Assembly: GCA_964036295.1 (NCBI GenBank)
Contig: OZ038467.1
Location: forward strand, 22,324,170-22,388,169
Direction of reading: 5' to 3'
DNA: 64,000 nucleotides
Origin: Plumapathes pennacea
Lineage: Eukaryota; Cnidaria; Anthozoa; Antipatharia; Myriopathidae
Both the position numbers and the translations under genes were made by a program. Each line of letters starts with the position of its first letter. Positions within the stretch are counted from its first letter, which is position 1. Shown piece by piece: positions 14,591-46,799 of this stretch. The notes beneath the pieces are model-generated. The model did not search any database. It was not told where the DNA came from and saw only the letters and a program-made list of their open reading frames with translations.

Positions 14591-14636
14591 GTGAGTCTGG
14601 TGTCAGCGTTTGCAATTCTGTACCTGCATATGACAT

Positions 14637-22220: not shown

Positions 22221-22224
22221 CTTA

Positions 22225-22609: not shown

Positions 22610-22767
22610 TTAGTCAATCATGGTCGAGAAACATACAGGTGTATCTGACCAAAGTCTATCATTCTTTAGCTAGTCAGACCTTTAATGGAGAGCGACAGAA
22701 CCTTTGGGAAACAGGATCAAATATTGCACTGTCGTTGTTTGTTAATGCCTCCTGTTTTTGTTTGCAG

Positions 22768-22980: not shown

Positions 22981-23340
22981 ACTGACTGTATAAGAATGTC
23001 CACATATTTTGAATGCTAGTAGAGTATCTGCATTGCCTTTTGTTTAATCGCCTTTTTCAGTGTAGGACAGGATTTCTTCTGTTTGTTTTTGTCTACACTT
23101 TTGAGTTTTCCTTTCCTCCTCAAAGCCTGATCCTCACTAACACATAAGCATAGGCTGCATAAATACAAGAGAGAGAGAGAGAGAGAGTGTGTGTGTAGCG
23201 GCATAAGGATCAAACACGTCCGTTCCTGGTGGCTTATCCTTATGTCGCCACTGTCTCTCTCTTGTGTTTATGTTTATGCTTATGTTTATGCACTAGTGAG
23301 GACCAGGCTTAAACCTTTATAGTACTGCTCCGCCTTTGAA

Positions 23341-23582
23341 GAGTTAATTTGACGTGCCGACCGTGGGAAATACGTACATCGTCACGCAATCGATTCTTTT
23401 TTCAACGCAAAAGTATAACACACACCATTCTTTTTCTCCTTCCTTTGCGTGTAGCACTTGAGTTCGAAGTAAAGATTGAGTCAACATTTCGGTAAAACAA
23501 AGGCTACTCTTGTTGGGAGTTACCAAAGTAAAAGTCTCATCAATGGCAGGAGTGAAGGGGTATCTGCGATTATCGTATTTCT
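23341..23582 (+). repeat. Dispersed repeat R1, copy 2 left
   Basis: Equivalent of 5240-5475. The adjacent ATT microsatellite (23585-23627) starts immediately after it. Confidence 0.8.
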
Positions 23583-23583
23583 A

Positions 23584-23584
<1 letters not shown>

Positions 23585-23627
<43 letters not shown>
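23585..23627. repeat. (ATT)n microsatellite
   Basis: About 14 uninterrupted triplets, shorter than the copy 1 run. Confidence 0.9.
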
Positions 23628-23763
23628 CCTTAAGTCTATTGTTATTGTTGTTAATTCTGCTAGTGATAGCTTTAACAGGTGAATAGCCACTATTTAGATA
23701 CACTGTTAATAAACTTATTATTATTTATTAACACAGTCAGTGGGTTGCTGTTTCCTCTAACAG

Positions 23764-25048
23764 GTCGTTACCCAATACATTTTCACATGAGCGATGACGT
23801 CACGGGTTCGTACGTACGCGGCTGCGCAATTCACCACACGTTCAACCGCGCTGTGACGATCCATGTGTGCGCGGGTTCATGGTCGAGCGAAACGTGGCGT
23901 ATCATGTGATGGGACATGCCTACTTCATCGAGGATGGAATAGAGACTGGCAACACAATTCAGTACAACCTGGGAGTATTCGTACAGGCGTCGAGTTCTCT
24001 GCTGACGGTGGACGCAACCCCAGCTGCATTCTGGATCACGAATCCCAACAGTACGGGTATGATGACTAACTTTCGTTGATGAATACCTTGTTGTAGAAAC
24101 TAAACCACTATGTACCCCAGGGTTGTTCCGTTTTTACAGACCATACGCTTAAAACGACTCCGCGGAAATGCATTTTCGAGTGAGAGGCGCAAAACTGTAG
24201 AAACCAGTGCCAACTGAAGTTTAGTTTTTGTTGATGTCAGACCTCGTTTCTCACATACTCTGAAGTGAAAGAAACGAGTCTGTAAAGAAGGTGCAATTTA
24301 GATTTGTTCTGTGAAAGAGACCGGGCGCCTTCTATGGTGGTACTGTATACTAATGTTTACATTCTGGTCTTTCTAGTTCGTCATAACACTGCGGCCGGAG
24401 GACGTCATTTTGGTTTCTGGTACAACATGCCCGTTAACCCAGGAAGTCCTTCGTTCACTGAGTCCGTGTGCCCTCGTAAGATCCCTCTTGGTGAATTCAG
24501 AAACAATACTGCACATTCTTTTGGACGATACGGCCTCTGGATCTTCCCCACTTACGTTCCCGCCGTTGGAGGGAGATGCTCTGGAAAGACTCCAGCGCCG
24601 GCGCAATTCCACTCTTTATTGGCTTACAGCAACTTAAAAGGATTTGAAGTTACCGAAGGAGGAGCTATTCAAGTGTTTAACTTCACCGTCTTGGACAACA
24701 TTGAGGCTGGGCTCGAGTTCACTCTTGTGGATGCTGCCTGGGGACAGAATCAAGGTCCTCTGGTTAAGGACTCACTCATAGTGGGCCATAGTGCTATTAG
24801 TGCTGGTGGCTGCACTCAGGGTGGGCTGGTGGCCCCTAAGGCCTCTTTCCTGACTGTCTCCGGAGCGACGTTTGTCAACTTTGACGCACCTTCGTGTACT
24901 GCGGTCCGTTGCTGCTCGTTTTGTAAGAATCAACAGGGAGGTTTCACTACAAAGTTTGCGAATATCCAGTTCACCGGATCACCCAACAAGGCTGTGTTCC
25001 AGTGGGAACACGAATGTGTTCTCGAAGACCTCGATGGTTCTCTGACAG
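23764..25048 (+). CDS. PKHD1L1-like: Exons: beta-helix after G8-1 (copy 2)
   Basis: Two exons, 23764-24056 and 24377-25048, joined in phase through N-S-T-V-R. The first has HFHMSDDVTGSYVRGCAIHH and, in the second frame, VAYHVMGHAYFIEDGIETGN, a family signature. One base is missing at about 23863 relative to copy 1, so the first exon is frameshifted here. The second exon is intact (672 nt, against 673 in copy 1 with the extra base) and reads AAGGRHFGFWYNM through VLEDLDGSLTG. So each copy has an intact version of the exon that is broken in the other. Confidence 0.85.
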
Positions 25049-28000
25049 GTTAGGTAACATTTTGATGCATTGCCTTTTTCTATTCAATTCCGCTCAAATC
25101 AGATATTTAGGGAAGGACGCCCATTCGTCCTGCATTAGCTAACACTTTCATGTTCCATGTTTTGCTGTACAACTGTAGTTTTAGTTATAACTCTCTAAAT
25201 AACACACTGAATACTGCTATTATTGAGAGCTTTCAAATGAGTGGTTACACGTTTACATATCATTTGACATATAAGAAGTTAGAAGTGAACACTACTGTTT
25301 TGTCTTATTTTAAAGGCATTCCTGAAGGAAGCATCGTTCCATGGAATCGTAACCTTCCATCGAAACACTGCAGCTATTCACCAGTCTTTGGCAGCGCCGG
25401 CTCTGTTAAAGCAAGTGTGTGTGATGCTTCAGTTCAGTTTAGGCGCATGGAATGGAACCAAATCTAACCGGGATCTCTACGATACAAAGACGCGCTTCTG
25501 TCAACTGAATCTGGAACTAGGCGCGCTGAGCCTTTGAACGAAAAAGGGAACCGTTTTCATATATTTTGTGTACAAGTAAAAGACAATTTGAGTACATATT
25601 GATACCCATTCGTTTTGTGCTTTTCCCCCAGCGCAACTTTCTACGAATTTGGTGAGCAAAACCATATTTGGATTACTCATCCCTTTAGTCAAAAACCGGA
25701 TATGTTCATCACAACGAGAAAAATTGTCAACATGTCCATTAGGGGCAGAACATTATTTCACGTAACAGTTCAGGATTTTGAAATAAACATTTCTAATAGA
25801 GTGTGCTATTGTGAGCTTTCATTTAAGAGGCCAAAACCTTAGGTTTCATTTGACTGTTCAGGAGTTGGAAGTGAACAACTGAGTGGTCACACTTGTTCTC
25901 TGTCAGGATGGATTTTGAATCGCTGTACCACTTATATTTACTATCTATCTTTTTATTCTTTCTCCACAGCTTCGTCGCTGTTATTTCTGGAAATGCATAA
26001 GGCCTGTCCCTCCCCCTCCCCCAGAGAAACGCCCACGCCTTTATCTTACCTGGTCTGATCCAGAGGCCTGGTACGGCACCGAACTTGGTTATGGTGGATA
26101 CAACAAACAGCTCCCCCAAAACGGAAGTGACGTCATGATTAAAGAAGGTTAGGAGGAATGTTATATGATTGGAAGTGTTCTATTATTGTCACGTGCAAAA
26201 GTTGCCAAATAAGTGAGATGCTTACTTGTCTACAATGCGTTGTAAGTTATCACAATCTAGTCTACATTGTGACCTGTATGATGATGTTGTGTTGTCTGAT
26301 AAATTGTCAATCTACAATGTAACAAGTCGACAATTTTCGTAAAGGAGATTGAAGTTAACTGGAAAGAAGGTTGTAAGCTTGCAACAGCAAAGCATTGCAG
26401 GGTGAGGTCAGGTGCTTACAATTGTCATCGTAAACAGTATAAGAACAGTATAAGCAACTTTTCCGTTGCGTGACAAATTATTGTCAAGACCCCCGTCGTT
26501 ACATACACAATTCCTTCTATAATTCGCCTCACAGTTGCAGTGCCTTGTGCGTCAGTATAGGTCCACTCTACTGAGATTTTCTCTTGTTATCAGGGTGGTG
26601 GATGGTGGCGGACACAGACTTACCTAAAATGAGACAGCTGATAATCTACGGGACTCTCGAACTGGCTCCGCACGGGGACTCTGTGCTCAGTGCAACATAC
26701 ATCATCGTTGGCGATCAAGGGAACTTAATCATTGGCTGGGAAGGCCAGCCAATGATTGGAAATGTCCTGATCTCCCTTAATGGGGATCGAAACACACCCA
26801 ACATACCTATACAAGACGGCCCCAACCTTGGATCAAAGGCATTGGGTACGTTTAGTTAGAGAATGCTGCTTTCATACGTTGTTACTGTGATTTCGATGCA
26901 TTTTAATATCCCGCCTACACAAATGAATGTTTATTTGTATAGGTAATCGCATGATTTCGAGTGCAATTTGGAATAAATTAGCACGACTAAATTTTTCAAA
27001 GACCACAAAATTGCACGAGCGCCGCGCGAGTGCAATATGTGGTCTTTGAAAAATTTACGAGTGCTTATTCATTACAAAATTGCACGAGAAATAATGTGAT
27101 TACTTGTTAATAACATGTATACAATAATTTACTTCGCGCAGTTTTTTTTTTTCAATTTCGTTACAATTCACAAGTGTTTCTCAAGCACTTTGTTTTCTCG
27201 CAAACAGAATCGGAATCGTCCTGAGGAATGAAAACACCCTTTTGTTTTGTTTGGCTTCGCAAATGCGCGCGCCAGCTGTCGGCAATTTTCAATTTAAAAT
27301 TTCTGCACTGTTAATTACACATTTTTGCACTGTTTGGGATAAATTGACGTGCGCTTAGCCAATCCGAATGCAGAAATTATTGTATGCATGTTATTACGTA
27401 TGTAACTTTAACATAAGATTTATTTGAGAATTTAATAAGATTCATTTGAGATTTATTAGAAGGGATCTCTCCAATAAATGTAGGCGTCTATAGTTGTTCT
27501 TTCCAATTGGTATTTAACAGGGGTTTTCGGAAACGTAGAAATCCACGGCGTTAATCGTTCGGTGTACTGGACCAGACTGACCCGGACAAGCGAGCCTGGG
27601 GACAAGTTAATCCATCTTCAGGAGCCAGTGGACTGGAACCCAGGAGAGGAAGTTGTCATTGCAACGACAACATACGAACCATATCAAACAGATATTCTAA
27701 GCATAGGTAGGGCAACATTCCAGAGTTCATTCTGTTTTTCTTACTTTTAATATTATACTTTATTCTCTCAACCTGGACACTGCATAAGGCAGTTGCATCG
27801 GCGCTAATTTGATGATTAGGCGTGTGAAGGAGACGTTCCTAAATACAGAAATTCAAAAGAAACCCAATCACTAGTGCTTATCGCTATCGCCACTTGCTTT
27901 CTTTAGTGGGAAAGTCTCAATCAGGTTTTTTTTTTGTGCCGATTGGCCGAGATTGCTATCAAAGTTGTTTGGACTCGGGGCTTAAAATTGGAGTCGAAGC

Positions 28001-31000
28001 TTGTACTTAAATATATACTAGAAATACGATAATCGCAGATACCCCTCGCTCTGACATTGATGGGACTTTTACTTTGGTACTCCCAAGAAGAGCAGCCTTT
28101 GTTTTACCGAAATGTTGACTCAATCTTTTCTTCGAAGTCAAATGCTACACGCAAAGGAAGGAGAAAAAAAAATGGTGTGTGTTATACTTTTGCGTTGAAA
28201 AAAAGAATCGATTGCGTGACGAAGTACGTATTTCCCACGGTCGGTCGGCACGACAAATTAATGTATACAGTCTGCCAAGCACGTTCTCAAAATCTAATAC
28301 TCAAATTTTGAAGTTGGTCGGCCGTCGTAGTACGGGAAAAAAGAAACACTGATTTTCCAATTTTGAATTCATAGGCAGTACAATTAAATAGGCTTCCTGT
28401 GTAATTTGTTTTTACTCTGGACTGCATGCACAAGACACAAGACACCTCTCGCGTCATCGTTCAACACTCTGTAGTCGCTGATTGTAAAACAGGTACGTAC
28501 AATTAGCACACCTTGGTTTATGAGATTTACTAAATTACCAAGTATCCAACTCGGAAAATACACGTGTACTCACTCTATTGACTTTCCCGTCCTGTCACTG
28601 TTTCTGACCCAGGAATCCTATTTAATGTCTGGAAGTGTTGCTATTACTACGAATCCTGGCTCTGGTGATGCGTTCCACCCAGTTGAGATCAACGGCCTGA
28701 GACTGTTCAACGTCTCACTGACGGACCTTCTCTACATCAAGCCGCCTAACCTAGGTTTGGTTAATCCGAGTGACTGCGTCGACATGGACTGCGATGGAAA
28801 TAAGCACGTGCTCTTCAAGGATCTAGATGGCAGTCTGACGAGCTCTGCTGGTGGAAGCGTTATTGCCAAGGCCGAGTTTGAGTGGAATGGTGATCCTTGG
28901 AGAGAATTAGGTTGGTGAAGTTTTTTTTTGTTTACCAATACAATTAAGATTTGCATTGAATCCCAAATTAATTAAACACGCATGGAAATTGTATTTTTTG
29001 TTAACCCTTTTATTCCCAAGCTCAAAATGTAGATTCTCCAAACCTTTTAAGAGTAAAATTTATGAGTAATGTAGTGAGAATTGATAGTTTAATCAGCTAT
29101 CATCTGAGCAAGGTATCAAAAGCCAAGTTCGGCTTTATGATACATTTCTAGTGAGACACTGAAGGAGAAAATCGAAGTTGATCACTCTTGGGAATGAAAA
29201 GGTTAATTGTATACGTCATGCTCTCCGTCAGGTGATCACAGACTTCCTAAAGCGATGTTGATGACAGTGGACGGACAGCGTTTGAATTCCTCTTTAGTAG
29301 CGCCACATCACGGAATTGTACGCGGAACAAGAAGTCAGAACATGTGCGCATGGCAAGCGGACTGGAATGCCTACAAATGTCACTCAATGAGTGAGTAACT
29401 GAAGCATCCGACATACCTCCAGCATCGCATTAGTTTACTTCAAACGTTTCAGGTCCCGTTTACGTCACTAGCGCGAATTTATCCGGATTATGGCATTTGG
29501 TTCTAGAGTCGTTAAAACGTTTGTACTAGTTTTTGTGGAATCGGTGTCATTTTGGTGAATTAGGAGAGAAAGCGAATCCAGAAGTGTCATTGGACACTTT
29601 GAACTCGGATACTTTGTGTCCGAAATAGCTTTCAAGTCTAAAAAGGCGGGACTTCACTCACTTATATATTTGCAAAATGCTCAATTGTCACCGATGTCTT
29701 TGCCTTAAGTATTTTTGTCGTATAGCGAGGCACCACTGAAGGCAATGAATGTTCAAGGTTTCAAAACCTGGCTTTATACTTCGGTGCCAACTGTATTTTT
29801 TCCCTTTTCTTTCTGTACAAATAGATTATGAGATGCTCATCATCGAAAGCTTGGACGCTGACACAGTGGTTCGAAGGCTCTCTCCCGTAGCCCTGTCTGC
29901 TGAGGGCTTCACAGACTTGTTGAATGACCCCATGGATCAAGGCTGGTGTCATGGTTACACTTGTGAAGAAAGACTCTCCACTTTTTTTCTCAGTTGTGGC
30001 AACTGGTTTTAACTATACTCTTTACTTCACTGGTACGTACACGGTTTTACAGCAGCTGTATGTATTGCACGTTGTGGTTTAAAACAATTCTAAAATTATG
30101 TCACATTTTGCCTCTCTATAATGCGGGTTCTCATCCCAATATTAAGAATAGGCCTTTTTCTCAGGGTTCGTCTAGCTAACTCAAAGTGTTTTCATTTCTC
30201 AGGAACCAATCCTCAGAGACTACGTCTAAGATTGCTGAACTCTGATCCTTCACAAGTCCTTCGGTTAGCAATCTGGTACTCCACACCTCAACGCTTGGAC
30301 GTTTATCGTAAGGGGCAGTCATTCACTTACGTCAAGAACGATCCAAAACTTCCTGATGATCAGTGTGAGCCACCACTCAGCAGTGTCAGCGGTGCTAACT
30401 ATTTTGACCGGCGCAAGCAAATGTTGTTTGTGGTTTTGCGAGGGAATTCACCAGTTGATACCAGAACGATGCCGATTGTACAAATCAAACTAGGTACGGT
30501 CTTTCATGTTGAATTAAGTTTCTTGTTCTAATTCATTCTGTATTTTTCTCTGCTCAAATCTACTCTATGTTCGACCTCATCTTTTAGCCAAACGCTCTCC
30601 ACTACAACCTACTTGATTATCTGTACTAATATGCTGTGCATTCCCGTGGTACATTGCATTGTACAGTCGTATTGCACTCCTTCCGGTGTAATATCTCCTT
30701 TGTACTCTACTGAAATGCATTGTACTACACTACACTACGCATGCTGTACTGAACCAAACTCCATTGTGCCATAGTCTATCGCTCGCTTAGTTCTTGATTG
30801 TATAACCACGTTGCTATTTGGTATTCTCAGGGTGTAAGCCTGTTGACGTCAGTGAATTCTTTGAGAAGAATCTGGTAGAAAATCTGGCGGGACTACTCCA
30901 GATTGATAAATCCCGAATACGGATCGTGGAAATCGTAAGCGCTTTGAGGCCATCCAGAAGGCGCCGAGCGTTATCCGAAGAAAAGACGACAACCATACGG

Positions 31001-34000
31001 ATAGAAATCGGAGAAGCACCTTTTGCTAATGTTCCTTACACTCCTGACGAGAAGTTTAATCCAAATTATGAGTAAGTTTTTTTGTCGAATTCTTATCTAA
31101 ATAGTTAACCCTTTCACTCCCAAGCTCAAAGTACAGATTCTCTCAACCTTTTAAGAGGAAATTGTATGAGTGATGTAGTGAGAATTGATAGTTTAATAAG
31201 TTATCACCTGAGCAAGGTATCACAAGCCAAGTTCTTACTGTATGATATATTTGTGCTGCCAAAACTGAAGGAGAAAATTAAACTTGATTACTCTTCGGAG
31301 TGAAAGGGTTAAGGGGAATCTTTTGAATACTTCTACTTCTGACTATTTAACAAAGGTGATTACGGGATTTTTTTTATCAACAGACCAACCTCGCCTCCTT
31401 CAGTCTCACCATCAGTCACGCCCCTCCCAGAGGAAGACATGAAAGTTCTGTGCGACAAGTTGCAAGTGCTCGCGACAAAGACCGTGGAAGCAGCTCAAAC
31501 AGGTGCAATGGCGTCAGGTTTGAAACTTGACGTCGTGTTCATTAACGTTACAGATCCTGAGCCACCTAGAGTTGATCCGACAGGCGGGAATCTGGTGACT
31601 AACGGGACAGGTAAATATCTGTAATAATCAATCAATCAATCAATCAGTCAGTCAATAAATCAATAAATCAATAAGTCAATCAAAAAATGACGTTACACCC
31701 AGTAAATTCCTCTGTTGATAACGGCAAGCGTAATAAACGGAATAGCGTTTTTTCCAAATAGCTAGAATAGCCGGTAATCTTCGCTTCTATTTTGGCGGGA
31801 AAATATCCGTACCCAGACTTCCTCGGTCTCAGCAAGTCAACTTTTTGACACGTCGGCTATAATTGTGTTTTCAGAATAGCACGAAGTGTATTCCTTTAGA
31901 AATTGATATTCTCTGTACTCTGTTATTCTTAAACCGGAATAGGAATAGACAGAATATTCCCCAATAGAACGCGCCCTAAAATGTGTTTTTTTGAATGAGT
32001 CTGTCTGTATCTGTAACAGCAGGTGGGCCCTCAAATGGTACGTGGCGGTACGATCAAGTAAACGCTATGAAAGAGGGAAACAAGACAAGTCTTGAGCACG
32101 ACTATCGCGTCCCGGTCAGATTACTATTGATGGAGAGTCCCAATGGCGCAAATGAAAGAGTGTCATTCTCAGTCCAACCTTCTCTTGTCATGCTTGATGC
32201 TGGTGATAACATAATCCCCTTACTAAGCCATGGAGCCAGTGAACAATGGTAAGACACATTTTTCACACCAGGATTCTAGAATGACTGAGTCTGAACTAAT
32301 ATGTGTCGTTTATCCAAGGTATGTAACAGCTACCATCCGAAATGCCACTGGTGACCCAGAAGCTGTGCTTGGGGGAAATAGTTCAGTGCCTTTTACGAAG
32401 GGCACAGCGAACTTCATCAATCTCAGCGTAAGTCACAGTGGACGTGACTACATTCTGGATTTCAAGATCTCATACCCATCAAGAGCTAACTTCACGACGA
32501 TCAGTTCACAATCTTTTGACGTGCGGGAGCGAGTGTTATACTTTAGTTTGGCACAAGAGCCGTCCGACTCTAACGAAACTGTGCCGTTTGAACAGCAACC
32601 AAGGGTTGAAGTACGAGACGCGGCTGATGGCAGTTTAGTGACCAATACTGGGTGAAAGGGTCGACAGTGGATATGCCGGGCTAAGATTGCTGATCCAGAG
32701 AAGAATCAAGGTAAGACCATTACTTTGTCTATCAAGGAAAAGTTGCTCGAGTTACGATACAGGGGGCAAAATGTCTTCATTCTAACATCGGAGTTCACTT
32801 TCAACTCCTGGAATGTCAAATTAAAGCTGAAGGTGTCCACTCAAATTATAGTGTAAATAAGTACAGACTAAAGCAGTGTTCATGGGCCAGTTTAATAAAC
32901 ATTTACAAATGTATTTTACAAGTGCGATCATTATTATCCGTCGGCTTACACTACTAAAGGATTTTAAGCTATTGGCACTCCATATCGAGACTACTGCTGG
33001 TCAGAAATACTTAGCTGCAACAACATAATCGAAAACATAAGAGTAATAAATTAGTTGGGTCCATTCAGACCAGGAAGGGCTGCAGTGCTGCCGAGTTACG
33101 TCAAAGTACTCGAAATAAAATCGTGGAATGAGAAAACCAACAGCTATAGTCCAGCAGACGGGAATAAGTGTTTTTAACTTTCTGGTCGTTATTCTATGTC
33201 GGATGCTCAGTGGTTTCATAATTGCATGATAGCGCTCAAATGCGATGACAACCAAAGAAAATACAGAGGCATATGAGCCGGCCCAGGCCAAGTTTCCACG
33301 GCTGATAGTTTTACATAGAACATTGCCATATAGTCCTGTTGGATGAGTAAAAGTTCCTTTTAAAATGAAAGGTGGAATTGTAAAAGTTCCGACCATCAGA
33401 TCAGATCAGCTGCAGCTAAATTGAGTAGTAAGTAGTTGATCGGAGTCTTCATGGAGCGGCTCTTGAGTATGACGACGATGACCAGGGAATTGCCGAGTAC
33501 GTTCATAGTGACAAGTACCGAGTACAGATGTGCGAAGATCGGTTCGCCGCTATACATTGCTCTGAGCTGAAACACACAAAGATATAACAGTCAAAACTTG
33601 GAATGCGATATTCGCAGAAAACTCGATTAGATGTCGATCGGAATATACAACGCCCCGACTTGGTCAGAAATAGCGGACACGCATGCGCATTAGGGGGTGC
33701 AATTTTTTTGGCTTTCAGTGTAAACTAAACATGAGACTTTACTATGAAGATGGACACAAAAATCATCGTACCTTTGAACTAGAGACTAAATAGCAAGCTG
33801 TTCAACCGGATTCTCTTATAATACAAGGATACCGAAAATATTAACACAAAATCAATAGCTGTCCATTTGTACTTCTTGCGTTTTTCCAATGTAAAGATGC
33901 AAGACACGTCTAAGAGACAACAGTATGGCAGACGAGCTGAAAACGGCACACTGGATGAGAGTAGCTGACCGTTTTGCCTCCAAGTTGTTGAAATAACGAA

Positions 34001-37000: not shown

Positions 37001-40000
37001 CACTGTTCCTCGTGAATTTCAACCAGTTCTCGAGATTCGCGATATCGCTACGAATCGCAATACTGGTAGCCTGGGTTGGCGCGGCGGGAAGTGGCGTATA
37101 CATGCTACAATTCAAGAGTCTGGAGCTGAATTGATGAACGGTAGTACCAAATCAGATATCCCTCCCTCTGGTCGCATAATATTCACGAATATTAGCTTCA
37201 GTGACGTTGCAATCGGTTATCAATTGAAATTTGAAGTGACTGTTCTCCCAGCATCTTCCTTGTACTCAGGAATGGCTGTTTCTTCCCAAAAATTTGATGT
37301 GCTTCCCAGAAAGTTTTATCTAGCGCTTGTAACTCAACCAGGCAATGTAAATCAATCAGTCGTGTTTGGAACGCAGCCAGTGGTTGAACTTAGGGATGTT
37401 GGGACTCGCCGCCGGGCAACTCCTCTCAAGTACAAGCCGTGGGTCTTCGTGAGCCTGGGTACTAATCCCAAGCCAGGCGAGGCTTTTCTCAATGGAACGC
37501 GTAATGTTTCAGTTGTTAAAGAAAGAGCGGAGTTCACCGATCTGCTCATCACTCGTTATGGAAGCGGGTTTGTATTGTTGCTTCAGTCCACGTACGGCCA
37601 GAGCGTTACGACGGCACCATTCGAGGTAAATATCAATTCACTATCAGTATTATCGACACTATCGTCATTATCATCACCAACACCACCACCACCGTCATCA
37701 TCATCATCATCATCATCATCGTTATCATCACTATCATCACTATCATCATCATCATCATCACCTTTCTTACAAGCACCACGATCGATCGTGTTCATTCTTT
37801 AGAGATGACAGCCCTGTTTTGTATTTCAGGGTCTTTAGTGAGCTTGTTATAGTCTACCCATGACCATCAGTCACCCAGCAACGCCCACTAGATTTTAAAT
37901 GTTACATTTTGATCTTTTCCCCAGGTGAATTACATCAATGATTACTCGCCGAAATTTCATCTTCCCAGTGGTTACAACGCATCAATCTCCGAAGGAGTAT
38001 TGATTGGAACGTTTGTTATTTTCATCAATGCTACGGACATGGACGAGGGAACCCAGGGACAAGTGTACTACTCCATTGTGTCGGGCGATGTCGGCAGCGA
38101 TTTTTCAATCGATAACGTCTCGGGTGTGGTGACCACTCATGCAAATCGGATCGGGAGAAGAAAGCTATATATGCCCTCTCTGTTCGAGCAAGTGACGGAG
38201 CCGTCCCGGACAAAGTTCGATATACCGACGTCACCGTAACTGTTAACGTTGGTGATATCAATGACAATTCTCCGGCCTTCGTCGAGGAATCTTTTGTTTC
38301 CCAAATAAGGGAGACCGCTCTCGCTGGTGACGTCATTGTTAGAGCTCAAGCAGTGGACTTTGACACCGGAAGTAATGCTGACTTATGCTACTCCATTACA
38401 ACCAGTAATGCACATGGGTACTTTGGAATTAGAGAAGACACCGGAGACATCGTCGTGAACAAATCCTTGGACCTGGAGGGACCCACGCCCCCAGTGTTAC
38501 ATTATATTTTAGGTAAGGTCGCTTATTTTAACTGTACCGATCTTCATCCGTGTTGGAATCAAAGAAAAATTTTGTACAAAGACATGCATGCAGCCCCAGT
38601 GTACCTTTACTGCAAGAAAACAATTAGTAACTGATTCCAACGGAACGGAATGGTGAAAATGTAACAAATTCAAAAGTGACTTCCAGAAATGCATGTCCTT
38701 GGTTTTGCCATACACGTACGCGAATAGGATATAGATTGTATTACGTAAAAGATTAGATCCCAAATTAGCGCTGGTGAAGTTTGACTTTAACCACAGTTCA
38801 CCCATCCCAACTCCAGCAACTTCAGCATCGAGGAAAACGTCCCTGTGCCTGGGGGACTGGTGCTGATTGATGTTAATGCTACAGACCGAGACTTTGGCTC
38901 CCAAGGTAAGTCGAGGTGTCTGGTGTTACATTTAACACTTAGAGGAATTCAGGAAAAGGTAACAGCATCTATGAAGCGCTGGTTCCGGCTGGAGATAAAA
39001 CTGAGAAACGAATATAAAAGTTTATTGAAAACTGACAAGCGCAAGTGACGAGAAAGAATAATGAATGGACAACTAGAAAGTAACTGAATTATTTACTGCC
39101 AACTGAAGTACAGAAATCAAGCCACTGTTCCGAAGTTCCCTTCTTATTATTGGCAGTCCGTTGTGTTCACTTTTTGCGCCTCGTATTCATTAGTTGCTAG
39201 TATCTTTAGGCTAGACCAATCACTGTTCATTTTTCTGATTTAGCCAATCAGAAAGCGCGGCGAGCGAAAAATGGAGAACATTACTTTGACAGTGTAACAA
39301 CTAAAGCTACACATTTATTGTTTCAACAGGACAGGTCTGGTATTCTATTGTGTCTGGTAATCAAGATGACAAGTTCAACATCACGTCTGTGGATGGTGTG
39401 ATTACATTACTTGCGTCTTTAGACTACTTCGCCTAACCACACGTTTGTTGTACGAGCTTCGGACAGTGGCTCTGCTGAGCACAGGCGCCACGCAGATTTT
39501 ACTTATATTGTAAACGTCGTGGACGTAAACGACAACACGCCGCAGTTTGTACAAGACGTGTTCCATGTGAATGTGTTGAAGACTTGTGTTCAAGGTTAGT
39601 GGGCGTTTCTTTGTTTACTCTTCCAAATACTCGTCACTGGCCATCTTGTTCCCAGTCCTGACCCTTCCCCCGACGAACAGCAAGCCTCCTCCTCCCCCCC
39701 CACCCCACCCTCACCCTCGCTTCCTTGTTCTTCAGCTTTCTAAGTGAGACCATTATATGCGCCAGCAGGATGTTATAGTAAACGTTATCAGGTAAATGTT
39801 TTCTTGGTCATCTTGTGCAAACTACATTTCTCCAGCCTTCTTCTACAGCTTACCATATTACCCTAGAAAGACGACAGCGAGGGAGAGAGAAGACGTATTA
39901 CGCAGTATAATGAATGTTCTTATGTAGCGCACTTATTGATGAGATGAGATCGGACGTCAGTTTAGCAGTAGTCACTGTTTACAAGAAAACATATCCACAG

Positions 40001-43000
40001 ACTGTCACCAAGTTTGTAAGCATCCCATTCTAAGATTTCCTTGTCATCAACAGGTGACATTGTCTGGAAGACTCCTGCAAGTGACGTAGATTCCGGTAAC
40101 AACGGAAAGGTGAGCTTGGAAATCTTATCTGGAAATGAAGAGGGCTTCTTCGCTTTAAACGCCGACACTGGAGAGATGACGCTGCAGAAGAGGCTTGACC
40201 TGGAGAAAGCACAACTGTTGCACTGGAATTTTACGATGGTTGTAAAGGCAACGGACAAAGGCAAACCTCCGTTGTCTAGCAACGCCACGCTCCAATTAAA
40301 GGCGCGTTTCAGTTTCGTTTTTCAAACTACTATTGTTTGAAAATTCACTGTCCTATTGGCTTGTTCATTCAGATATGTGTTGTCTCTGAACATTTTAAAG
40401 TATATTGAGGTTGAAACATGTGTCATTTCTAAGAAATCACGTATTTGTACATACTGTACATCAGGGCCGTTTCTGGTTGTTGTCTCCAGCTAAACGATGC
40501 TGCATTCATTATCTTACACTACACTTAACACAGCTTGGGCAGAACGAAAGTCTGGCATTAAATGCTATAGATTTTCTACCAAACACTTCACAATAATAGC
40601 CAACGTTGGATAATATTAATTACGAATAATGAAATATGTAATTTTTAGTAACAGAAGTTCTGTATAATGCAGGTGGTCAGTTAAAGTGAATTCCCGCCCA
40701 AGTTCACAGCAAGTGAGAAGACCACGACGATTCCTGAGGACACCACAGGGGACACCTGGTGTTGAACATGTCTGCCACAGATGCTGACTTTGGTACTGAT
40801 GGAAAAGTTAGGTAAGTCGTGCAAAAAGTTACTGTGCATATGTCTTAAAGCTAGTGGCACTGCGGAACCAAGTAAATAGAGCGGAACCTCCGTAAATGAC
40901 CACCTCCCGTAAAGGACTACTTACCAAATGACCGATTAGTCACTCAGTCAATTTCTTTTAGTGAAACCTCTCTTAGGCGACCGCGACCACCGTTGAGGCT
41001 CACCGTTTGAGTTTTTCTAAAGTTTTTTTTTTACCTCTGGTAAGCGACCACTCTATGCTCTCAAACAGCAAGTTTCTGAGCAAGGTCTAACTTCCTTGCA
41101 AAAACCGGACAAAACACTAACGTACGTAATGTAACGTGCAACAGGACGCGATGTTGATTTATCAAAAGACAAGTTGGTTTTGACTTACTAAAGCTGCATT
41201 ATTTGACACTGGTTGTGGCTCAAAGCTGGATCTCACTTAGGCCTGCTATTACTTTTGTTTGCAGCGAATTTAGAGGTGTCCCCTATGGGCCACTGTATGC
41301 TATGTAAGACATTCTCGTAAGAGACCACCTGTCATAAGCGACCACTTAAAGACAAACGAAGGGTGGTCGCTTACGGGAGGTTTCACTGTATCAGTTTTAA
41401 TTTACTTTGATGTCTTGTATGTCTTTTTCAGGTATTCAATAAGTCAAGGGAACGATGTAAGAAGCTTTCGAGTAAATCCAGATACTGGTGAGGTTTTTGT
41501 TCAGACGCCTTTGGATTGCGAAAAAGTCCCCGTCTATCATCTGAAGATTCAAGCCTCTGATAGGGCACTGCTTCCAGCTAATCAGCGCAGCTCTCACATT
41601 ACTGCAACAGTGATCCTGAAAGATATTTATTAAACGACAACAAACCAGAATTTGGCAACGCCTCATACTACACCAATGTCAAGGAAACTGCGAGCGTGGG
41701 TGAAGAAGTTTTAACTGTCCAAGCAGTGGACACGGATCAAGGTAGATATAAGTTATGTGGCTTGACTTATATTTTGGTAAATTTTATAGGAGTGTAAATG
41801 TTATACACGTGTTAACAAGCTCAAAAAATAGACTAGGGTGGATTAAGAATGCAATTGAATGTGATATTCGCTGTTACGAGGCAACATAAATGAAATCTAA
41901 ACTGTGCACCAATTTGGCTTGGTCCTTGGTAATCATGTTACGTCACTCACCTTGTATAGCTCCTCATGGATTGTAACCACTGAACAGTACCTTTTTTTTC
42001 AAACAGGAACGAATGGGGAAGTGCAATATTTTATAAGTTCAGGCAAAAGCCATGGGTTTTTCAGCATGGACGCTAACACTGGAACAATAAAGGTGAAACA
42101 GAGCCTCGATCTGGAGTCTCAGCAACACGTCAACGACTTGTTGTACATTTTTACTGTACAGGCAGGAGACAAAGGTCAACCCAGGTCACTTAGCAACGAC
42201 GTCCTCGTTACTATAGAGATAAAAAGCGTCAACGAGTTTACACCCAAGCTGGAGCATCCGGGTCGACTGTACATTAAGATCCCCGAGAGTACTCAAGTAG
42301 GAAGTGTTATAGTGATAGTCGATGCTACTGATGGCGACTTTGGAGCTGACGGCACTCTTACTTATTCTATAATCACCGGAAATGACGTAGGGTCGTTCAG
42401 CATTGACCATAGCAGTGGCTTAGTAAGTGTAGCAAGAGTGCTTGACTATGAAACCATAGTTCTTTATGTGCTGGTTGTGCAAGTAACTGACAGGGGAACA
42501 GTCATCAGTCAGCGGCGCTCATCCGTTGCTAAGGTGACCGTGCGCCTGAGCAATGTAAACGACAGCGGTGATGTGGACATTCAAGTTGATGGCGTTGCCA
42601 AGCGACTCACTCCATCTGGAGATCCTGCTGAGCACGTGGGCTTAAAGACCAGCAGCACGATCAGCATTTTAGTCTGCTGTATGAAAATGGTGAGTAATGG
42701 ACTAATCCTTATATACTCATGTGTTCAGCAAAAGCAATCGCAAATGACTCTCGCTTCTGATTGGTTGAAGGTTTTTCTTTACAGCTTTGTGATTGGTTGA
42801 AGGTGTTACCTTATAGCTTTTGTGATTGGTGTTGTAACTACTTTGGTTGTAGTTTTAAGAACGTCCTCTAAAAGCCGCTCTAATATGTTTAAGAATATGG
42901 ATTCCTTTCATTGCTTTGCACGAGGTCCTCATATGCGACCTGTTTTATATTCCGATATAAATCTAATACTAACAACCCAACGGTTATTAGAAATCAGACC

Positions 43001-46000
43001 TCCTTCAAATCCTAGAGTAATTCCATAATATTTACTAGCACAACTATTACACATAGTTAACGAGATGTTAAAAACATGTTCTGACCTGAAGCGTTTATTC
43101 CTCAGGAACTACTGAGAAACGTCCCCGTCACGACCCCCGAGTGTCTTACGATGACTCTTCGAAGTCACGTGGGTTGTTTACTGTTCTGAAAAGCACCGGC
43201 CTGATTCAAGTCAATCAAGCAGAACTTCTTGGCGAAGGAACTTTGATTGTAAGAGTCCACAATGTCTACAATGTGCGCGTACTCATTAAAGTAGTGGGTT
43301 ATTCTGCTTTGGAAGTCTGGGCCAGTCTTTATCCAGCTGTTCAGCCGACAAACCGTGTCTTAACTATAAAGCGCGTGGGTAGCGCAAATGGAAACTTTCA
43401 GCAAGCCACCCTCGGACTTAACCTCGTTCTGACGGACAACTCAACGTTTGACGTTTCTACAATGCAGATGACGTCATATCACCTCATCCAAAATAACGTC
43501 AGGGTTGAAGCTTCAATCGGGCCCGATCCGTTGAATTTGTTGCGCGTTTCTCAAGGGAGCGATTACGGAACTTTAAGCGTATGTGGTGAGTTTGCAAGAA
43601 AGAAATCCAGCAATCTTGATTTGCCCGTCTCCAAAGAAGTTGTTACCATGCAGAAAATCCTAAGTGCTCAGCTGAACGGTCTGGTAAACAAAACTCTTGT
43701 TGCTTTGGAGAATGAAGCTGTAGCTCAGATCCACGTTCACTTTCTGATGAGCGACAGTTCTTCTTTGGTGGTACGAAACTTTTCAATCTACTCTGGACTG
43801 GTAAACTTCAAAGTTGACCATCCGGAAATTGCGTCAGTGGATAACAATACAGGCTGTGTCATACTGCTCAAGGATTACCATGACGTCATTATTGTGATAG
43901 TAACAGCCAATGACAATTCAGAAGAAACTGTAACCGTGAGGTTTTTCTGTAATACTGAGCCTCCAATAGGAGGAGTTGACATAGGCCAGCGGTTTGGTCC
44001 TGCAATACCATACCTTACTGCGCATCAGAAGGTAGAGATACCTCTGCGAGTGAACGCAGGCGCTGCAAGGCTACTTGCTTTTGATGTCACAATCTCTTAT
44101 GATGCGAACAAAGCACTGTTTTTGGGTGTTACTGCCATACCACCACGAGGCGGGAATAGTCCACTTGGCCAACGTTATCAAACCAGATACCCTACACATA
44201 GGAAGAATTTCAACTTTGGCCTTTAAAGCGCAACAGCGCGGTGTCATAGGATTACAAGGTAAGACTAACATGCTTATTGACGACAAGTTTGGATTCATAG
44301 GCACCATTCCTCCTCCTAGTACCCCAACTTCCTGTACCCAGAGTCCTTTAGGAGATGTGAATATGGATTGCGTGTTTGACGTCATGGATGCGGGATACAC
44401 GTTGTTGTACAGTCTGGCAAGAGAGCGCAAGTTTCGTGGCAGCGCCGATCAAAAGTTGTTTACAGAAACAACTCCATATATGGTAAGTTGCTCGCACAAC
44501 AGTTCTTGGTATGTATCAGAAGCGATCTGACTTGAACAGAAAGAGTTAGACTAGTTTCTGTTTTGTTTGTAGTCCGCCTCTTTTAAACTTACACTGTTAC
44601 GAGGATAATTGCATTTTTGGGTTTTATTTCATTGATAGTTCAAGCTGTTATCGTGCCCTTATTAGGAGCTTTTATCAGAAACTGAACCTCTTCACTGGTA
44701 AGCGGGGTTTGACGAGGAAAACAACAAGAAAAAGAATCAACTTTGACGCCAGCTGACATGAAATTGACGCGCGTTATAATGCACGCAGCATTTTTCAGAA
44801 TGTACCAAACAGATTGCGCGTTCTATTTATCTTATCTTATAAGTAGTACTGAATACGCTCTATCGAAGGGTTATATGTTGTTTATCGTGTCTTTTTCTTT
44901 TCTACAGAAGCAGACTATGGACTTCAACGTGAATGGGTTTGTAGATCGTAATGACGCGTTTCTTCTGTCCCGAGCCACTTTCGACATGGTGCGATTTACA
45001 GAGCCCTTACAAGTAATTCTGCCAGACCACACGAACCAATCAACCGAGTGCGCTTTCAAGATTCACATGAAGCTGACTCTGAAGAACGGAGACCCAGCGA
45101 GCGAGGAGTCTACCCAAGTGTTTTTTGAAATGGCAAGCAACAACCCACTGTTGTATGAAAAACTGAAGAACACAGAGCTGGAAGGGGGAGCGGAAATGGT
45201 CGCATGGTACGACAGCCAAAACGAGCTCTTTGGCGGAATTTTTGAGGTAAAGCTTGGTTTAGATGGAAGAGTTGCCGTAGCGTCCAAAAACTCCCATCTG
45301 CAAATTCTTAATCTGGGCCTGTCGATGATTCAGGTTACTCATAATCCTCCTCTCCCCGCGTCTTTTGTCAGCCCGCTGTTTTCTTTTTCGCGGGACCCAG
45401 AATTCAATGCGACTTTAGACGTTCCTCTCACTGCAAACTCCCGCTTGCTGCCCAAAGAACACTCGCCGCAACTCCACATCAACATGACAGAGCCGACATC
45501 AAATTGTTTGGATCCATGGATAGCCAAGAATGTCCGATTGACCTTTGAGAATGACTTCAGCGCCGTGAAGGGAAATGAAAAGATCTTCACAGCTTCTTTA
45601 GTCGACGATCTAACACGACGGATCACACATACAAAGATCGAAAATGTGCGACTGCTGCCTGGAAGCATTCTGGCCTATTTTGATGTCCTAGCTCGCCAGT
45701 CACATATTGAGAATGTTTTAGGTTCCATCTGGGACCTGGTGAGATCAGGTTATACTTTAAACGCTGCTGTGATGAATTTTAAGGTGCGGAAATTGATGCA
45801 GGTCGACAACGCGGATTACTATGGCCCTGAAGGAACACCAGGACCGGAAGAAAAAGAAGTGACGTCATTTCCTTTGGCAGCTGTGGTGTCTGTATGTGTC
45901 GTCGCTGCAATCATCGCTTTTGCGCTAGTACTGTACTTTATTTGCAGAAAACGCGTCTTCCGCACTAAAAGAGGCTTCCGAGTTGAGAGATTTAGCCGAG

Positions 46001-46209
46001 TGGCGCTCCAGACACGAAAGTCGAGTGAGCAGCGGGTTGGGGTGGAACTCACCTCCATCGGTCACACCAACTACCCTGCCGAGTTCCAGGATAACGAGGT
46101 CTTGGTTACTCCACGACTTCCTCGTGCTGCGGGTCGGAGATCTGTATCCCCATTAATTGATCGACAGATGAAGAGAGTGGAGTCCGCTGCGTCTACACGT
46201 TGCTTTTAA
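23764..46209 (+). CDS. PKHD1L1-like: Giant PKHD1L1-like / cadherin / cohesin-dockerin-like membrane protein gene (multi-exon, broken frames)
   Basis: Exons: 23764-24056, 24377-25048, 25316-~25500, ~25632, 25970-26147, 26594-26845, 27521-27706, 28613-28910, 29232-29390, 29825-30032, 30203-30493, 30831-31071, 31384-31610, 32020-32248, 32319-32710, 36463-36666, 36988-37625, 37925-38512, 38797-38905, 39330-39594, 40054-~40300, 40681-40811, 41432-41741, 42007-42689, 43106-44482, 44908-46209. Most adjacent splice phases agree. Order of domains: beta-helix, G8, C-terminal fibrocystin-L region, Ig-like repeats, cadherins, BIG2/cohesin-like, dockerin-like, transmembrane helix, short tail. The N-terminus is not in a collinear position; the IPT exons at 11.7-14.6 kb may be its 5' part. 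A role in cell-surface adhesion is inferred. Frameshifts and a few stops mean it is either a pseudogene or carries consensus errors. Confidence 0.75.
25316..25842 (+). pseudogene. PKHD1L1-like: Exons after the beta-helix, damaged (copy 2)
   Basis: From 25316 the frame continues in phase with GIPEGSIVPWNRNLPSKHC and SVCDASVQFRRMEWNQ, then a TAA at 25465-25467. The same frame after the stop still reads PGSLRYKDALLSTES, so this looks like one nonsense change. The next exon starts at 25632 (FYEFGEQNHIWITHPF) but has lost about 144 bp that copy 1 keeps (which encode NGDWFFKNFTKEFTYIVTGK). The gene cannot make an uninterrupted chain through here as it stands. Confidence 0.7.
25970..27706 (+). CDS. 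PKHD1L1-like: Second G8 domain, three exons
   Basis: Exons 25970-26147, 26594-26845 and 27521-27706 join in phase, and all three are open. They begin with a proline-rich lead, then LTWSDPEAWYG and GSDVMIKEG, the start of a G8 domain, followed by DLPKMRQLIIYGTLEL, SATYIIVGDQGNLIIG, NVEIHGVNRSVYWTRL and the closing WNPGEEVVIATT. G8 is an all-beta extracellular domain named for its conserved glycines and found in PKHD1, PKHD1L1, TMEM2 and CEMIP. In copy 1 the first of these exons has a stop. Confidence 0.9.
26961..27085. repeat. Imperfect hairpin in G8 intron (copy 2)
   Basis: Inverted arms around GAGCGCCGCGCGAG: TTTTTCAAAGACCACA pairs with TGTGGTCTTTGAAAAA, and GTGCAATTT near 26961 with AAATTGCAC near 27085. 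Copy 1 (about 9050-9145) retains only the left arm. This is probably a foldback MITE relic. Confidence 0.75.
27707..28612. other. Intron with R1 inverted copy and duplication break
   Basis: R1 in reverse orientation lies at about 28018-28265. The duplicated block ends near 28438. Just after it, 28441-28492 reads DTSRVIVQHSVVADCKTG before a good donor (GTACGT). It may be a beta-helix exon, but its phase does not fit the next exon, so it is not called as coding. Confidence 0.5.
28613..32710 (+). CDS. PKHD1L1-like: Fibrocystin-L C-terminal region, nine exons
   Basis: Exons 28613-28910, 29232-29390, 29825-30032, 30203-30493, 30831-31071, 31384-31610, 32020-32248 and 32319-32710, joined in phase (eight clear; a ninth may be missing at the start). 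Diagnostic stretches: NPSDCVDMDCDGNKHVLFKD, VRRLSPVALSAEGF, DQGWCHGYTCEERLS, RLRLRLLNSDPS, NLVENLAGLLQIDKSRIRIV. These closely follow the known order in vertebrate PKHD1L1. Lesions: one extra T in the T7 run at about 29978-29984, and TGG to TGA at 32653-32655 inside an otherwise continuous frame. The acceptor at 32019/32022 is a tandem CAGCAG. Confidence 0.88.
29004..29205 (+). mobile_element. TTAA-flanked MITE family M1
   Basis: TTAACCCTTTTATTCCCAAG at the left and GGGAATGAAAAGGTTAA at the right, about 200 bp, in an intron of the giant gene. Confidence 0.8.
31105..31313 (+). mobile_element. TTAA-flanked MITE family M1
   Basis: Best-preserved copy: AGTTAACCCTTTCACTCCC at the left, GGAGTGAAAGGGTTAAG at the right. 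Intronic. Confidence 0.8.
31626..31685. repeat. (AATC)n / (AATA) short tandem repeat
   Basis: Runs of AATCAATCAATC and AATAAATCAAT directly after the donor of the 31384-31610 exon. Confidence 0.85.
33001..33557 (-). pseudogene. Truncated class A GPCR nested in intron
   Basis: Read on the minus strand from an ATG at 33557, just after an acceptor-like TTTCAG. TM1 includes VTMNVLGNSLVIVVIL (the GN motif), TM2 MKTPINYLLLNLAAADL, then a frame break at about 33396-33406 where a 5-base unit is tandemly repeated. The chain resumes in ECL1 with the conserved cysteine (GNVLCKTISRGN), then TM3 ending FERYHAIMKPL (the E/D-R-Y position is ERY), TM4 with VCWTIAVGF, and ECL2 with RQHC. A stop falls in TM5, so TM5-7 are missing. 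Ligand class is unknown. It lies antisense within the largest intron of the giant gene. Confidence 0.8.
33568..35559. other. Large intron, no gene supported
   Basis: Several minus-strand frames of about 110-130 codons exist, but their composition gives no recognisable domain. AT-rich sequence dominates after 34970. It may hold an upstream exon of the nested GPCR, but none can be identified. Confidence 0.5.
35560..35760. mobile_element. Foldback element, ~200 bp
   Basis: Inverted arms: GTGTAATATAGCCTCATCTA pairs with TAGATGAGGCTATATTACAC, and AAGTTGGGAGAACACTCGAG with its complement, around a short GC-rich centre. A third partial copy of the end sequence (GCGTGTAATATACTCTCAT) follows near 35792. 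It is a MITE-like relic; no clear target duplication was found. Confidence 0.75.
35761..36289. other. Intron sequence, nothing recognised
   Basis: AT-rich intronic DNA with a partial repeat of the foldback end near 35792-35870. No coding signal. Confidence 0.5.
36290..36420 (-). mobile_element. MITE family M1, reverse orientation, partial
   Basis: Contains GGGAGAACTTGGCTTTTGAT and GAGAATCTGTATTTTGAGC, the reverse complement of the family. It is the most diverged copy in the window. Confidence 0.65.
36463..37625 (+). CDS. Ig-like repeats linking PKHD1L1 region to cadherins
   Basis: Exons 36463-36666 and 36988-37625 join in phase to 32710 on the left and to the cadherin exon at 37925 on the right. 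At least three similar units were seen, each with a Q-P-x-V-E-x-R-D strand (FGTQPVVELRDVGTR; EFQPVLEIRDIATN) and a later FTNISFSD or FTDLLI strand; the preceding exon has one more (FEQQPRVEVRDAADG). The same kind of unit closes vertebrate PKHD1L1, so this is an extended version. Multiple N-x-S/T sites suggest glycosylation outside the cell. Both exons are open throughout. Confidence 0.8.
37645..37775. repeat. (TCA)n microsatellite
   Basis: ATCATC-type trinucleotide repeats in the intron after the 37625 donor. The aspartate-rich minus-strand frame and serine-rich plus-strand frame across it are artefacts. Confidence 0.9.
37925..42689 (+). CDS. About seven cadherin repeats, multi-exon
   Basis: Exons 37925-38512, 38797-38905, 39330-39594, 40054-~40300, 40681-40811, 41432-41741 and 42007-42689. 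Cadherin calcium-binding signatures recur: DINDNSPAF, VDVNDNTPQF, NDNKPEF, IEENVP, NATDRDFGSQG, DATDGDFGADG and LDYE/LDLE motifs. Cadherin repeats are calcium-stabilised adhesion domains. Frame breaks: about 38147 (one base missing), about 39432, about 40757 (one extra), 41626-41635 (a repeated TATT) and about 42656. No donor is evident at 40300. Between breaks the reading is clean, and the flanking splice sites are intact elsewhere. Confidence 0.85.
38513..38796. other. Intron, nothing recognised
   Basis: No coding signal; the minus-strand frame here is a shadow. Confidence 0.6.
39595..40053. other. Intron with C-rich tract
   Basis: A CCTCCCCCCCCACCCC-type tract lies near 39692. Nothing else recognised. 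Confidence 0.6.
40959..41389. mobile_element. MITE in cadherin intron, ~430 bp
   Basis: Inverted ends AGTGAAACCTCTCTTAGGCG and CTTACGGGAGGTTTCACT, with internal repeats of GCGACCAC. A related fragment (GGAACCTCCGTAAATGACC) lies just upstream at about 40880. The type is probably Harbinger-like, from the end sequence; the target duplication is unclear. Confidence 0.65.
43106..44482 (+). CDS. BIG2/cohesin-like region and first dockerin-like loop
   Basis: Joined in phase to the previous exon's alternate frame (LLYENG then TTEKRPRHDPR). The first part has bacterial-Ig-2-like sequence: ALEVWASLYPAV, IASVDNNTGCVILLKDYHDV. The next part has a cohesin-like pattern: KVEIPLRVNAGAARLLAFDV, TISYDANKALFLGV, then in a shifted frame (break at about 44138) IGRISTLAFKAQQRGVIGLQ. 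It ends with GDVNMDCVFDVMDAGYTLLY, resembling the first calcium loop of a type I dockerin. Combined BIG2 and cohesin-like domains have been described, as I recall, in the TMEM132 family, but the dockerin-like part is not part of that. The domain calls are from motif patterns only. Confidence 0.6.
44483..44907. other. Intron, nothing recognised
   Basis: Short intron between the two halves of the dockerin-like motif; GTAAGT donor and TCTACAG acceptor. Phase 0. Confidence 0.7.
44908..46209 (+). CDS. Last exon: second dockerin-like loop, ectodomain, TM helix, tail
   Basis: Open for 433 codons to TAA at 46207-46209. It starts MDFNVNGFVDRNDAFLLSRA, the second calcium-loop-like repeat, 12-residue spaced with D/N at the expected positions. 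Next comes about 290 residues of extracellular beta-rich sequence with N-glycosylation sites, and then a single transmembrane helix (PLAAVVSVCVVAAIIAFALV, followed by LYFICRKR). A basic cytoplasmic tail of about 90 residues follows (RKSSEQRVGVE; RRSVSPLIDRQMKRVES). The type I topology follows from the helix and the stop-transfer basic residues. This exon has no lesion. Confidence 0.85.
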   Translation, partial: KQTMDFNVNGFVDRNDAFLLSRATFDMVRFTEPLQVILPDHTNQSTECAFKIHMKLTLKNGDPASEESTQVFFEMASNNPLLYEKLKNTELEGGAEMVAWYDSQNELFGGIFEVKLGLDGRVAVASKNSHLQILNLGLSMIQVTHNPPLPASFVSPLFSFSRDPEFNATLDVPLTANSRLLPKEHSPQLHINMTEPTSNCLDPWIAKNVRLTFENDFSAVKGNEKIFTASLVDDLTRRITHTKIENVRLLPGSILAYFDVLARQSHIENVLGSIWDLVRSGYTLNAAVMNFKVRKLMQVDNADYYGPEGTPGPEEKEVTSFPLAAVVSVCVVAAIIAFALVLYFICRKRVFRTKRGFRVERFSRVALQTRKSSEQRVGVELTSIGHTNYPAEFQDNEVLVTPRLPRAAGRRSVSPLIDRQMKRVESAASTRCF

Positions 46210-46285
46210 AATTTGACCATGCATTTATCTGTACAACGTCCGCCAGCTGCATTCAAACTAACGCAGTAAATACAAGGATTTTTAC

Positions 46286-46291
46286 AATAAA
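46286..46291 (+). promoter_or_regulatory. Poly(A) signal AATAAA
   Basis: First canonical hexamer after the stop codon at 46209, about 80 nt downstream. It probably serves the giant gene. No transcript evidence. Confidence 0.5.
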
Positions 46292-46799
46292 ATATTCGTG
46301 CAGGTTCGGATAAACAAAATTACGCTGCGTCTCAGGTTTCCATAGAAGCGTGGACGGAGGGAAGTTTGACTCCCGACTTGAAAGAAAAGAGGATTAAATC
46401 CGGTCGCGCTACTCCATCCAGTTCCTCACCATTGCCATCGCCTATGGAAACCGTCGTCAGATTCCCAGGAACGTTTCCTGAAAGTTTCATGCGATGCTGG
46501 GATTAGCCCATAAAATGAGCGTTTACCGAAAAAAATGCAAAGGCATATGTCCATGCTTTTTTCAACTGTTAGTCTCACACAGACAATATAGACTTACAAT
46601 GCGTTCTATTGGCAAGACAATATTGAATAACCTTCTTTTCCTTTATAGACATGTGAGAGTTTGAACAACGGCAGCTTTAGGGGATTGAGTCCATCGAATG
46701 AAATACCAGATAAATGGGCCTGAGAGGATTGTAAATGGATCGGAACCTCAACAAACTTCAGCAGTGCCTTTGGAAATACAAGTCGCGGAACCATGTCTT

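Follow-up and report, generated by a model that had tools for sequence, protein, structure and literature searches.

The DNA stretch analysed here (the window) comprises 64,000 nucleotides of the antipatharian Plumapathes pennacea, C6:22324170-22388169, where C6 is contig OZ038467.1 of assembly GCA_964036295.1; the genome surveyed along with it amounts to 290 Mb in 24 contigs. On the forward strand, the window carries a succession of exons that encode a head resembling fibrocystin-L (PKHD1L1), followed by a stalk of cadherin repeats with BIG-like, cohesin-like and dockerin-like parts and a transmembrane helix. Very probably, these exons are decayed duplicates of the gene for a giant, fused, single-pass membrane protein, the fusion being shown by a close relative on contig C12 and an old paralogue on contig C1.

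Exons and domains of the window copy

The C12 gene is colinear with the window copy over most of the latter, at 93-98% identity by piece (blastn), and this comparison allows us to follow the copy exon by exon on the plus strand. A preliminary description of the window had placed a single gene at 23764-46209, but neither boundary holds: position 23764 lies in mid-gene and the stop at 46209 is supplied by an insertion described below. The exon at 23764-24056 encodes part of the CEMIP beta-helix and is followed by a second, open beta-helix exon (24377-25048), the shortened remnants of two exons at 25316-25738 (25316-25520 and 25632-25738), the exon that precedes the second G8 domain (25970-26147) and the first (26594-26845) and last (27521-27706) exons of that domain. 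Pfam recognizes G8 (4.3e-17, in the exon at 26594-26845) and the CEMIP beta-helix (3.6e-15 and 1.4e-9) in these exons at 24-27 kb. The next two C12 exons are absent from the window, and two more are mostly or half absent, leaving the remnant at 28443-28492 and an exon from 28613 (together 28443-28912). The exons at 29231-29389, about 29821-30012 and 30203-30493 (29231-30493) match residues 3421-3652 of the C1 protein; the exon at 30831-31071 carries a convertase-type site (RRRR) in C12, with identical letters in the window; and two exons at 31384-32248 (31384-31610 and 32023-32248) lead into the first immunoglobulin (Ig)-like unit.

Ig-like unit 1 shares the exon at 32319-32710 with the first half of unit 2, the second half of which lies at 36463-36666, and units 3 and 4 occupy 36988-37625. 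The two joins that the preliminary description had checked by hand are borne out: donor 32710 (AAG/GTAAGA) with acceptor 36463 is canonical and in phase 1, and donor 37625 (GAG/GTAAAT) with acceptor 37925 is canonical and in phase 0. The stalk then runs through cadherin repeat 1 and the start of repeat 2 (37925-38512), repeat 3 in two exons (38791-38905, its start, and 39330-39594), repeat 4 (40054-40301), the first part of repeat 5 (40673-40811), repeats 5 and 6 (41432-41741) and repeats 6 and 7 (42007-42689). Pfam confirms the cadherin repeats at 37.9-42.6 kb (best 1.8e-31), as it does the beta-helix/G8 part, so that the domains announced for both halves are indeed present. The lack of a GT donor after repeat 4 was considered as a lesion and withdrawn because C12 carries the identical, probable GC-AG donor.

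The exon at 43106-44482 comprises the BIG-like region, the cohesin and the first half of the dockerin; that at 44908-46201 contains the second half of the dockerin, the membrane-proximal region, the transmembrane helix and the start of the tail. The dockerin-like motif reported earlier is visible, although at 18.0 bits (0.0034) it stays below the Pfam cut-off of 22.9. A cohesin-like domain can likewise be placed, at approximately 43.9-44.3 kb, but a frameshift divides the window version, and the case for this domain comes from the predicted fold of its C1 homologue. In Pfam scans, the split window exons matched no cohesin profile and the Ig-like units gave no match, and a phmmer search of PDB with the C-terminal protein of the window returned no match.

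Read-through fused genes on contigs C1 and C12

At two other loci, a single gene does encode both the fibrocystin-L-like head and the cadherin/cohesin/dockerin stalk, as claimed, whereas the window copy itself is broken. Neither model is interrupted by a stop: that at C1:3.632-3.669 Mb comprises 6,073 residues in 29 exons, the longest of them open over 1,107 codons, and that at C12:98.7-133.9 kb comprises 5,672 residues in 39 exons. The C12 model begins after the place of PA14 and has two exon ends placed by hand, and two short exons that it skips also join in phase; the start codon is not established in either model. Because GT-AG sites and open frames were imposed on the models, these features are not independent evidence, which comes instead from the long open exons and from homology. 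In both genes, IPT repeats, G8, beta-helix, four Ig-like units, cadherins, a BIG-like region, cohesin, dockerin, one transmembrane helix and a tail follow in this order. The ectodomain set of PKHD1L1 (IPT/TIG, PA14, two G8, beta-helix) is found on C1, where Pfam reports seven stretches of TIG, PA14 (1.3e-5, on C1 only), two stretches of G8 and CEMIP_beta-hel (4.2e-54); the C12 head is identified by G8 matches and by homology to C1. At least seven cadherin repeats are present on C1 (seven stretches, 4e-135, above the Pfam cut-off).

By blastp, the C1 and C12 proteins align in two stretches: at 43% identity across the larger part of the head, and at 39% from where the head ends, through the Ig-like units, cadherins, cohesin and dockerin, as far as the membrane region. 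These two long alignments imply that the fused architecture is probably older than the divergence of C1 and C12 and has been kept since.

A fibrocystin-L-like gene and a coherin-like cadherin gene adjacent to each other head to tail could give the appearance of a fusion. The 3.75-kb gap at 32.7-36.5 kb of the window indeed contains a gene on the opposite strand, and a coherin-like gene in which no fibrocystin part was detected does exist in this genome (C1:16.727-16.748 Mb). However, the gap splits a single Ig-like unit that is uninterrupted in one exon on C1, and the last strand of Ig-like unit 4 shares a single C1 exon with the first cadherin repeat, so that the join between Ig and cadherin is independent of splicing. 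The same colinear order recurs on C1, on C12 and at two further C6 loci. Furthermore, neither spliced model has a strong hydrophobic stretch at the end of the Ig-like units; the only one lies past the dockerin, at residue 5883 of 6,073 in C1 and 5371 of 5,672 in C12. The single-exon junction on C1 and the recurrence at other loci lead us to reject the two-gene explanation, to which we assign almost no probability. The fusion of fibrocystin-L with cadherins, as judged from sequence, almost certainly exists in an intact gene.

The cohesin assignment relies on fold: structure prediction and Foldseek yield a cohesin fold for the C1 module, whereas Pfam scores stay under the cut-off of 24.1 bits (17.6 for C12, no match listed for C1, 23.9 for the module of the C1:16.7 Mb gene). 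Dockerin type I on C1 reaches 29.9 bits, above the cut-off of 22.9; the dockerin half of the module was poorly predicted, and the Foldseek and VIA results concern the cohesin and say nothing on the dockerin. A PDB profile search with four related modules produced 16 weak matches (best E 0.0029), to dockerins or dockerin-bearing proteins, one cohesin and one calmodulin. A separate dockerin-like match at C4:16393826-16393993 (minus strand; 23.2 bits, above the cut-off) lies on a contig that harbours none of the loci studied here.

Both genes contain an RRRR convertase-type motif between head and stalk; the surrounding region looks SEA-like by eye but has no Pfam match, and we do not claim it as SEA. 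Beyond the membrane span, the tail exons join in phase into a tail of well over 100 residues. No match to the catenin-binding Cadherin_C was found in the tail sequence scanned, which covers a portion of the C12 tail and, except for a single exon, the C1 tail. The tails of C1 (3631942-3632203 and downstream) and C12 (C12rc 51179-52013) run into a segment that is alike by eye and then into a MYND-type cysteine motif, unexpected for a fibrocystin or a cadherin; the MYND matches, at 15.2 and 14.7 bits, are below the Pfam cut-off of 22.7.

Decay of the window copy and local duplication

The window exons had been read as one continuous frame, and this reading fails. Relative to C12, there are in-frame stops at 25465 (TAA, in the first of the two shortened exons near 25.5 and 25.7 kb) and 32653 (TGA, in the exon ending at 32710), as well as frameshifting changes at seven places: near 23863 (1-bp deletion, beta-helix), 38145 (cadherin repeat 1), 39423 (5-bp deletion), 40681-40748 (three small indels), 41625 (5-bp insertion), 42666 (2-bp insertion) and 44133 (8-bp deletion). 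As a result of the change near 38145, Pfam positions 1-57 of repeat 1 lie in one frame and positions 60-92 in another. Part of repeat 2 is deleted, with the loss of its end, the acceptor of the exon at 38791-38905 and 89 bp of cadherin exon in comparison with C12. At the 3' end, the stop at 46209 lies within a 138-bp insertion (46195-46332) flanked on both sides by a 10-bp sequence of which C12 has one copy at this place. Downstream of 46.4 kb, the window has no sequence that matches the following C12 tail exons, and the longer C-terminal tail seen in C12 and C1 is lost. The insertion resembles a short mobile element, of which no second copy was found within the window.

These disabling lesions, set against a relative that reads through, are accompanied by signs of relaxed constraint on the window lineage. 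When residue changes between the window and C12 are polarised with C1 as the outgroup, 49 of 61 are assigned to the window lineage and 12 to that of C12, with 74 further differences unpolarisable. Over 3,126 codons, omega between the window and C12 is 0.54 (bootstrap 0.41-0.71), with 0.44 for the head and 0.65 for the stalk; the overall value is consistent with relaxation on one branch and constraint on the other, but also with a copy that spent some time under constraint. We have little doubt that the window copy is a pseudogene.

Conceivably, the window copy is intact and its lesions arose as errors during sequencing or assembly, several of them being single-base indels as seen in the assembly sequence alone. 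Typical errors of long reads do not resemble a substitution-rich pattern. Between the two copies within the window, substitutions outnumber indels (125 mismatches versus 10 indels in 4,700 aligned bases), and the changes are distributed about evenly over codon positions (15/13/19; 606 codons compared), with 31 of the 44 changed codons nonsynonymous. Moreover, whole exons and the 138-bp insertion differ, the nested G protein-coupled receptor (GPCR) gene is broken as well, and the same assembly contains cadherin frames as long as 4,022 codons along with the two read-through fused genes. Given the ratio of substitutions to indels, the loss of whole exons and the long open frames elsewhere, we reject assembly error as a very improbable explanation; as far as the sequence tells, the lesions look like decay rather than assembly noise.

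Even in decay, the copy could be of use through a truncated or chimeric product, such as a short receptor with cadherin and cohesin parts encoded in its 3' half. The last exon is open over 433 codons and 96% identical to C12, and omega is below 1. Against this, it is the cadherin-coherin half that has the higher omega and that harbours six of the seven frameshifted places, and the match to the next C12 tail exons is missing downstream of 46.4 kb. We regard such a product as improbable and retain the interpretation of the copy as a pseudogene.

The window contains tandem partial copies, 0.2-10.4 kb matching 17.0-28.4 kb at 93-97% identity (96-98% ungapped, in five pieces). The copies extend over 0.2-17 kb and 17-31 kb, and copy 1 is scrambled, with IPT exons after the beta-helix/G8 exons. 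In copy 1 (5522-16144, plus strand), a partial, rearranged and decayed duplicate, blastn places blocks corresponding to C12rc 26126-31006, 21200-24362 and 34188-34473 in this order; the beta-helix/G8 exons come first, the IPT exons second and a single later exon last. Searching the genome with the window exons revealed close copies on C12 and on C6, where they lie at 20.3, 21.1-21.2, 21.7, 22.3 and 22.7-22.8 Mb. C1 carries a single distant copy, and C8 carries broken remnants, at 0.099 and 18.15 Mb, that contain internal stops. Beside the window, the sequence was examined for C1, C12 and two C6 loci (20.3 and 21.2 Mb), and the other loci are known from search matches. The two C6 loci have the identical domain order and several exons with broken frames, and the search matches suggest further breaks on C6 at 21.67 Mb (a split beta-helix exon) and 22.82 Mb (a split last exon).

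Of 28 G8 matches in the genome, C1 and C12 account for two each, all within the fused genes, and C6 for 24; none was found in the genome outside these three contigs, and C6 matches other than those in the loci examined as sequence, including one at 23.25 Mb that stands apart from the rest, may be unfused. The interval C6:20.30-23.25 Mb, with 24 of the 28 matches, appears as a burst of partial copies, compared with a single gene each on C12 and C1. The window, on this evidence, is the site of two partial, decayed duplicates among several partial copies on C6. Scans of viral contigs for relatives found none. For annotation, caution is due: all three C6 copies examined as sequence are broken, and both copies that read through lie elsewhere.

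Known relatives, novelty and possible function

Vertebrate PKHD1L1 includes a PA14 domain and has an Ig-like end. Fibrocystin-L is a coat protein of stereocilia (PMC6707252, PMC11043200). The C1 protein shares with it the IPT repeats, two G8 domains, beta-helix and single membrane span (PMC6707252, PMC11043200), as well as PA14 and the Ig-like region. However, PKHD1L1 stops shortly past its Ig-like region, and its tail measures 8-9 residues, whereas the fused gene has four Ig-like units followed by at least seven cadherin repeats, the BIG-like region, cohesin and dockerin, the span after the dockerin, and a tail of more than 100 residues. Fibrocystin/polyductin (PKHD1) is not known to contain a cadherin, cohesin or dockerin, and its tail also differs from that of the fused gene. 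The ectodomain of PKHD1 is related, and its cleavage by a convertase between the ectodomain and the membrane part (PMC13424714) is comparable to what the RRRR motif would allow.

The stalk has a known relative in the coherins, cadherins with a cohesin domain that are credited to Nichols et al. 2012 (PMC6030884). As in coherins, cadherin repeats and a cohesin occur in one membrane protein, with a BIG-like region beside the cohesin, the latter recognized by its predicted fold and below the Pfam cut-off. In contrast to coherins, the fused gene adds a fibrocystin-L head, and its scanned parts contain no match to the TMEM132-type domains that PMC6030884 reports for coherins. Such domains are present in the coherin-like gene at C1:16726921-16748472, which also has cadherin repeats and two cohesin-dockerin-type modules, with no match to a fibrocystin head within the 25 kb examined. 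Given this separate gene, the fusion is most naturally read as a fibrocystin-L joined to a stalk of coherin type. The TMEM132 family resembles the stalk in that a cohesin-homology domain adjoins BIG domains; however, its own cohesin precedes three BIG domains, and the five domains described for it include no cadherin repeats, dockerin or fibrocystin head (PMC6030884). The predicted cohesin fold and the dockerin match recall the bacterial cellulosome, but here both modules reside in one animal membrane protein.

No description of a fusion of fibrocystin-L with cadherins was found among the matches listed in the open-access literature searched, and the fusion may well be present, without a name of its own, in related genomes annotated by automatic means. 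We take the protein A0A3M6UHX3 to come from a coral. It is named Fibrocystin-L and has a mass of 719 kDa (PMC12383311). In size it would fit the fused form, since the C1 model, which lacks the start and the last exons of the tail, already amounts to 657 kDa. A fibrocystin-like gene also appears among the differentially expressed genes in a study of wounding in an anemone (PMC5288695). The expectation of a new surface molecule is justified in part: the combination of head and stalk is new, but novelty is limited to it because cadherins with a cohesin are already known as coherins (PMC6030884), and the window copy itself is very probably a pseudogene.

The domain order, the single strong hydrophobic span and the convertase-type motif suggest how the fused protein might work, in a scheme that is our best-supported guess and should be taken as tentative, each step of binding, cleavage and signalling being drawn from anatomy. 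The head would bind carbohydrate of the matrix or of a neighbouring cell. The RRRR motif between head and stalk would permit cleavage by a proprotein convertase, and the cleaved head would either be retained in a two-chain receptor or be shed as a coat. The cadherin rod, stiffened by calcium, would set the reach of the molecule and may bind in trans. Near the membrane, the cohesin of one molecule would pair with the dockerin of another, clustering receptors, and the tail would signal.

In the fused protein, two adhesion systems, that of fibrocystin and that of cadherins, come together in a single molecule. It provides an evolutionary connection among PKHD1L1, coherins and TMEM132 that can be tested, with the Ig-cadherin junction as a defined marker that can be traced through animal and choanoflagellate genomes. 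A bolder and rather doubtful scenario would have the fused giant as the ancestral animal form and vertebrate PKHD1L1 as a truncated remnant of a coherin-type receptor that once carried cadherin, cohesin and dockerin. Under this scenario, the MYND-like cytoplasmic finger would have made it a signalling receptor, and the fused gene would be the sole kind of fibrocystin-L in this animal, with a local burst of duplication and decay.

Among the neighbouring features, the gene nested in the intron between the halves of Ig-like unit 2 is a rhodopsin-type GPCR, open in C12 (C12rc 38000-38983; 7tm_1, 1.9e-48), with a frameshifted and shortened counterpart at 33001-33658 on the minus strand of the window. 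An open exon at 52133-52708 of the window resembles by eye the 7TM end of a receptor of the metabotropic glutamate or GABA-B type, and a 28-bp tandem repeat occupies positions 60993-61815 with 29 copies matching at 99%.
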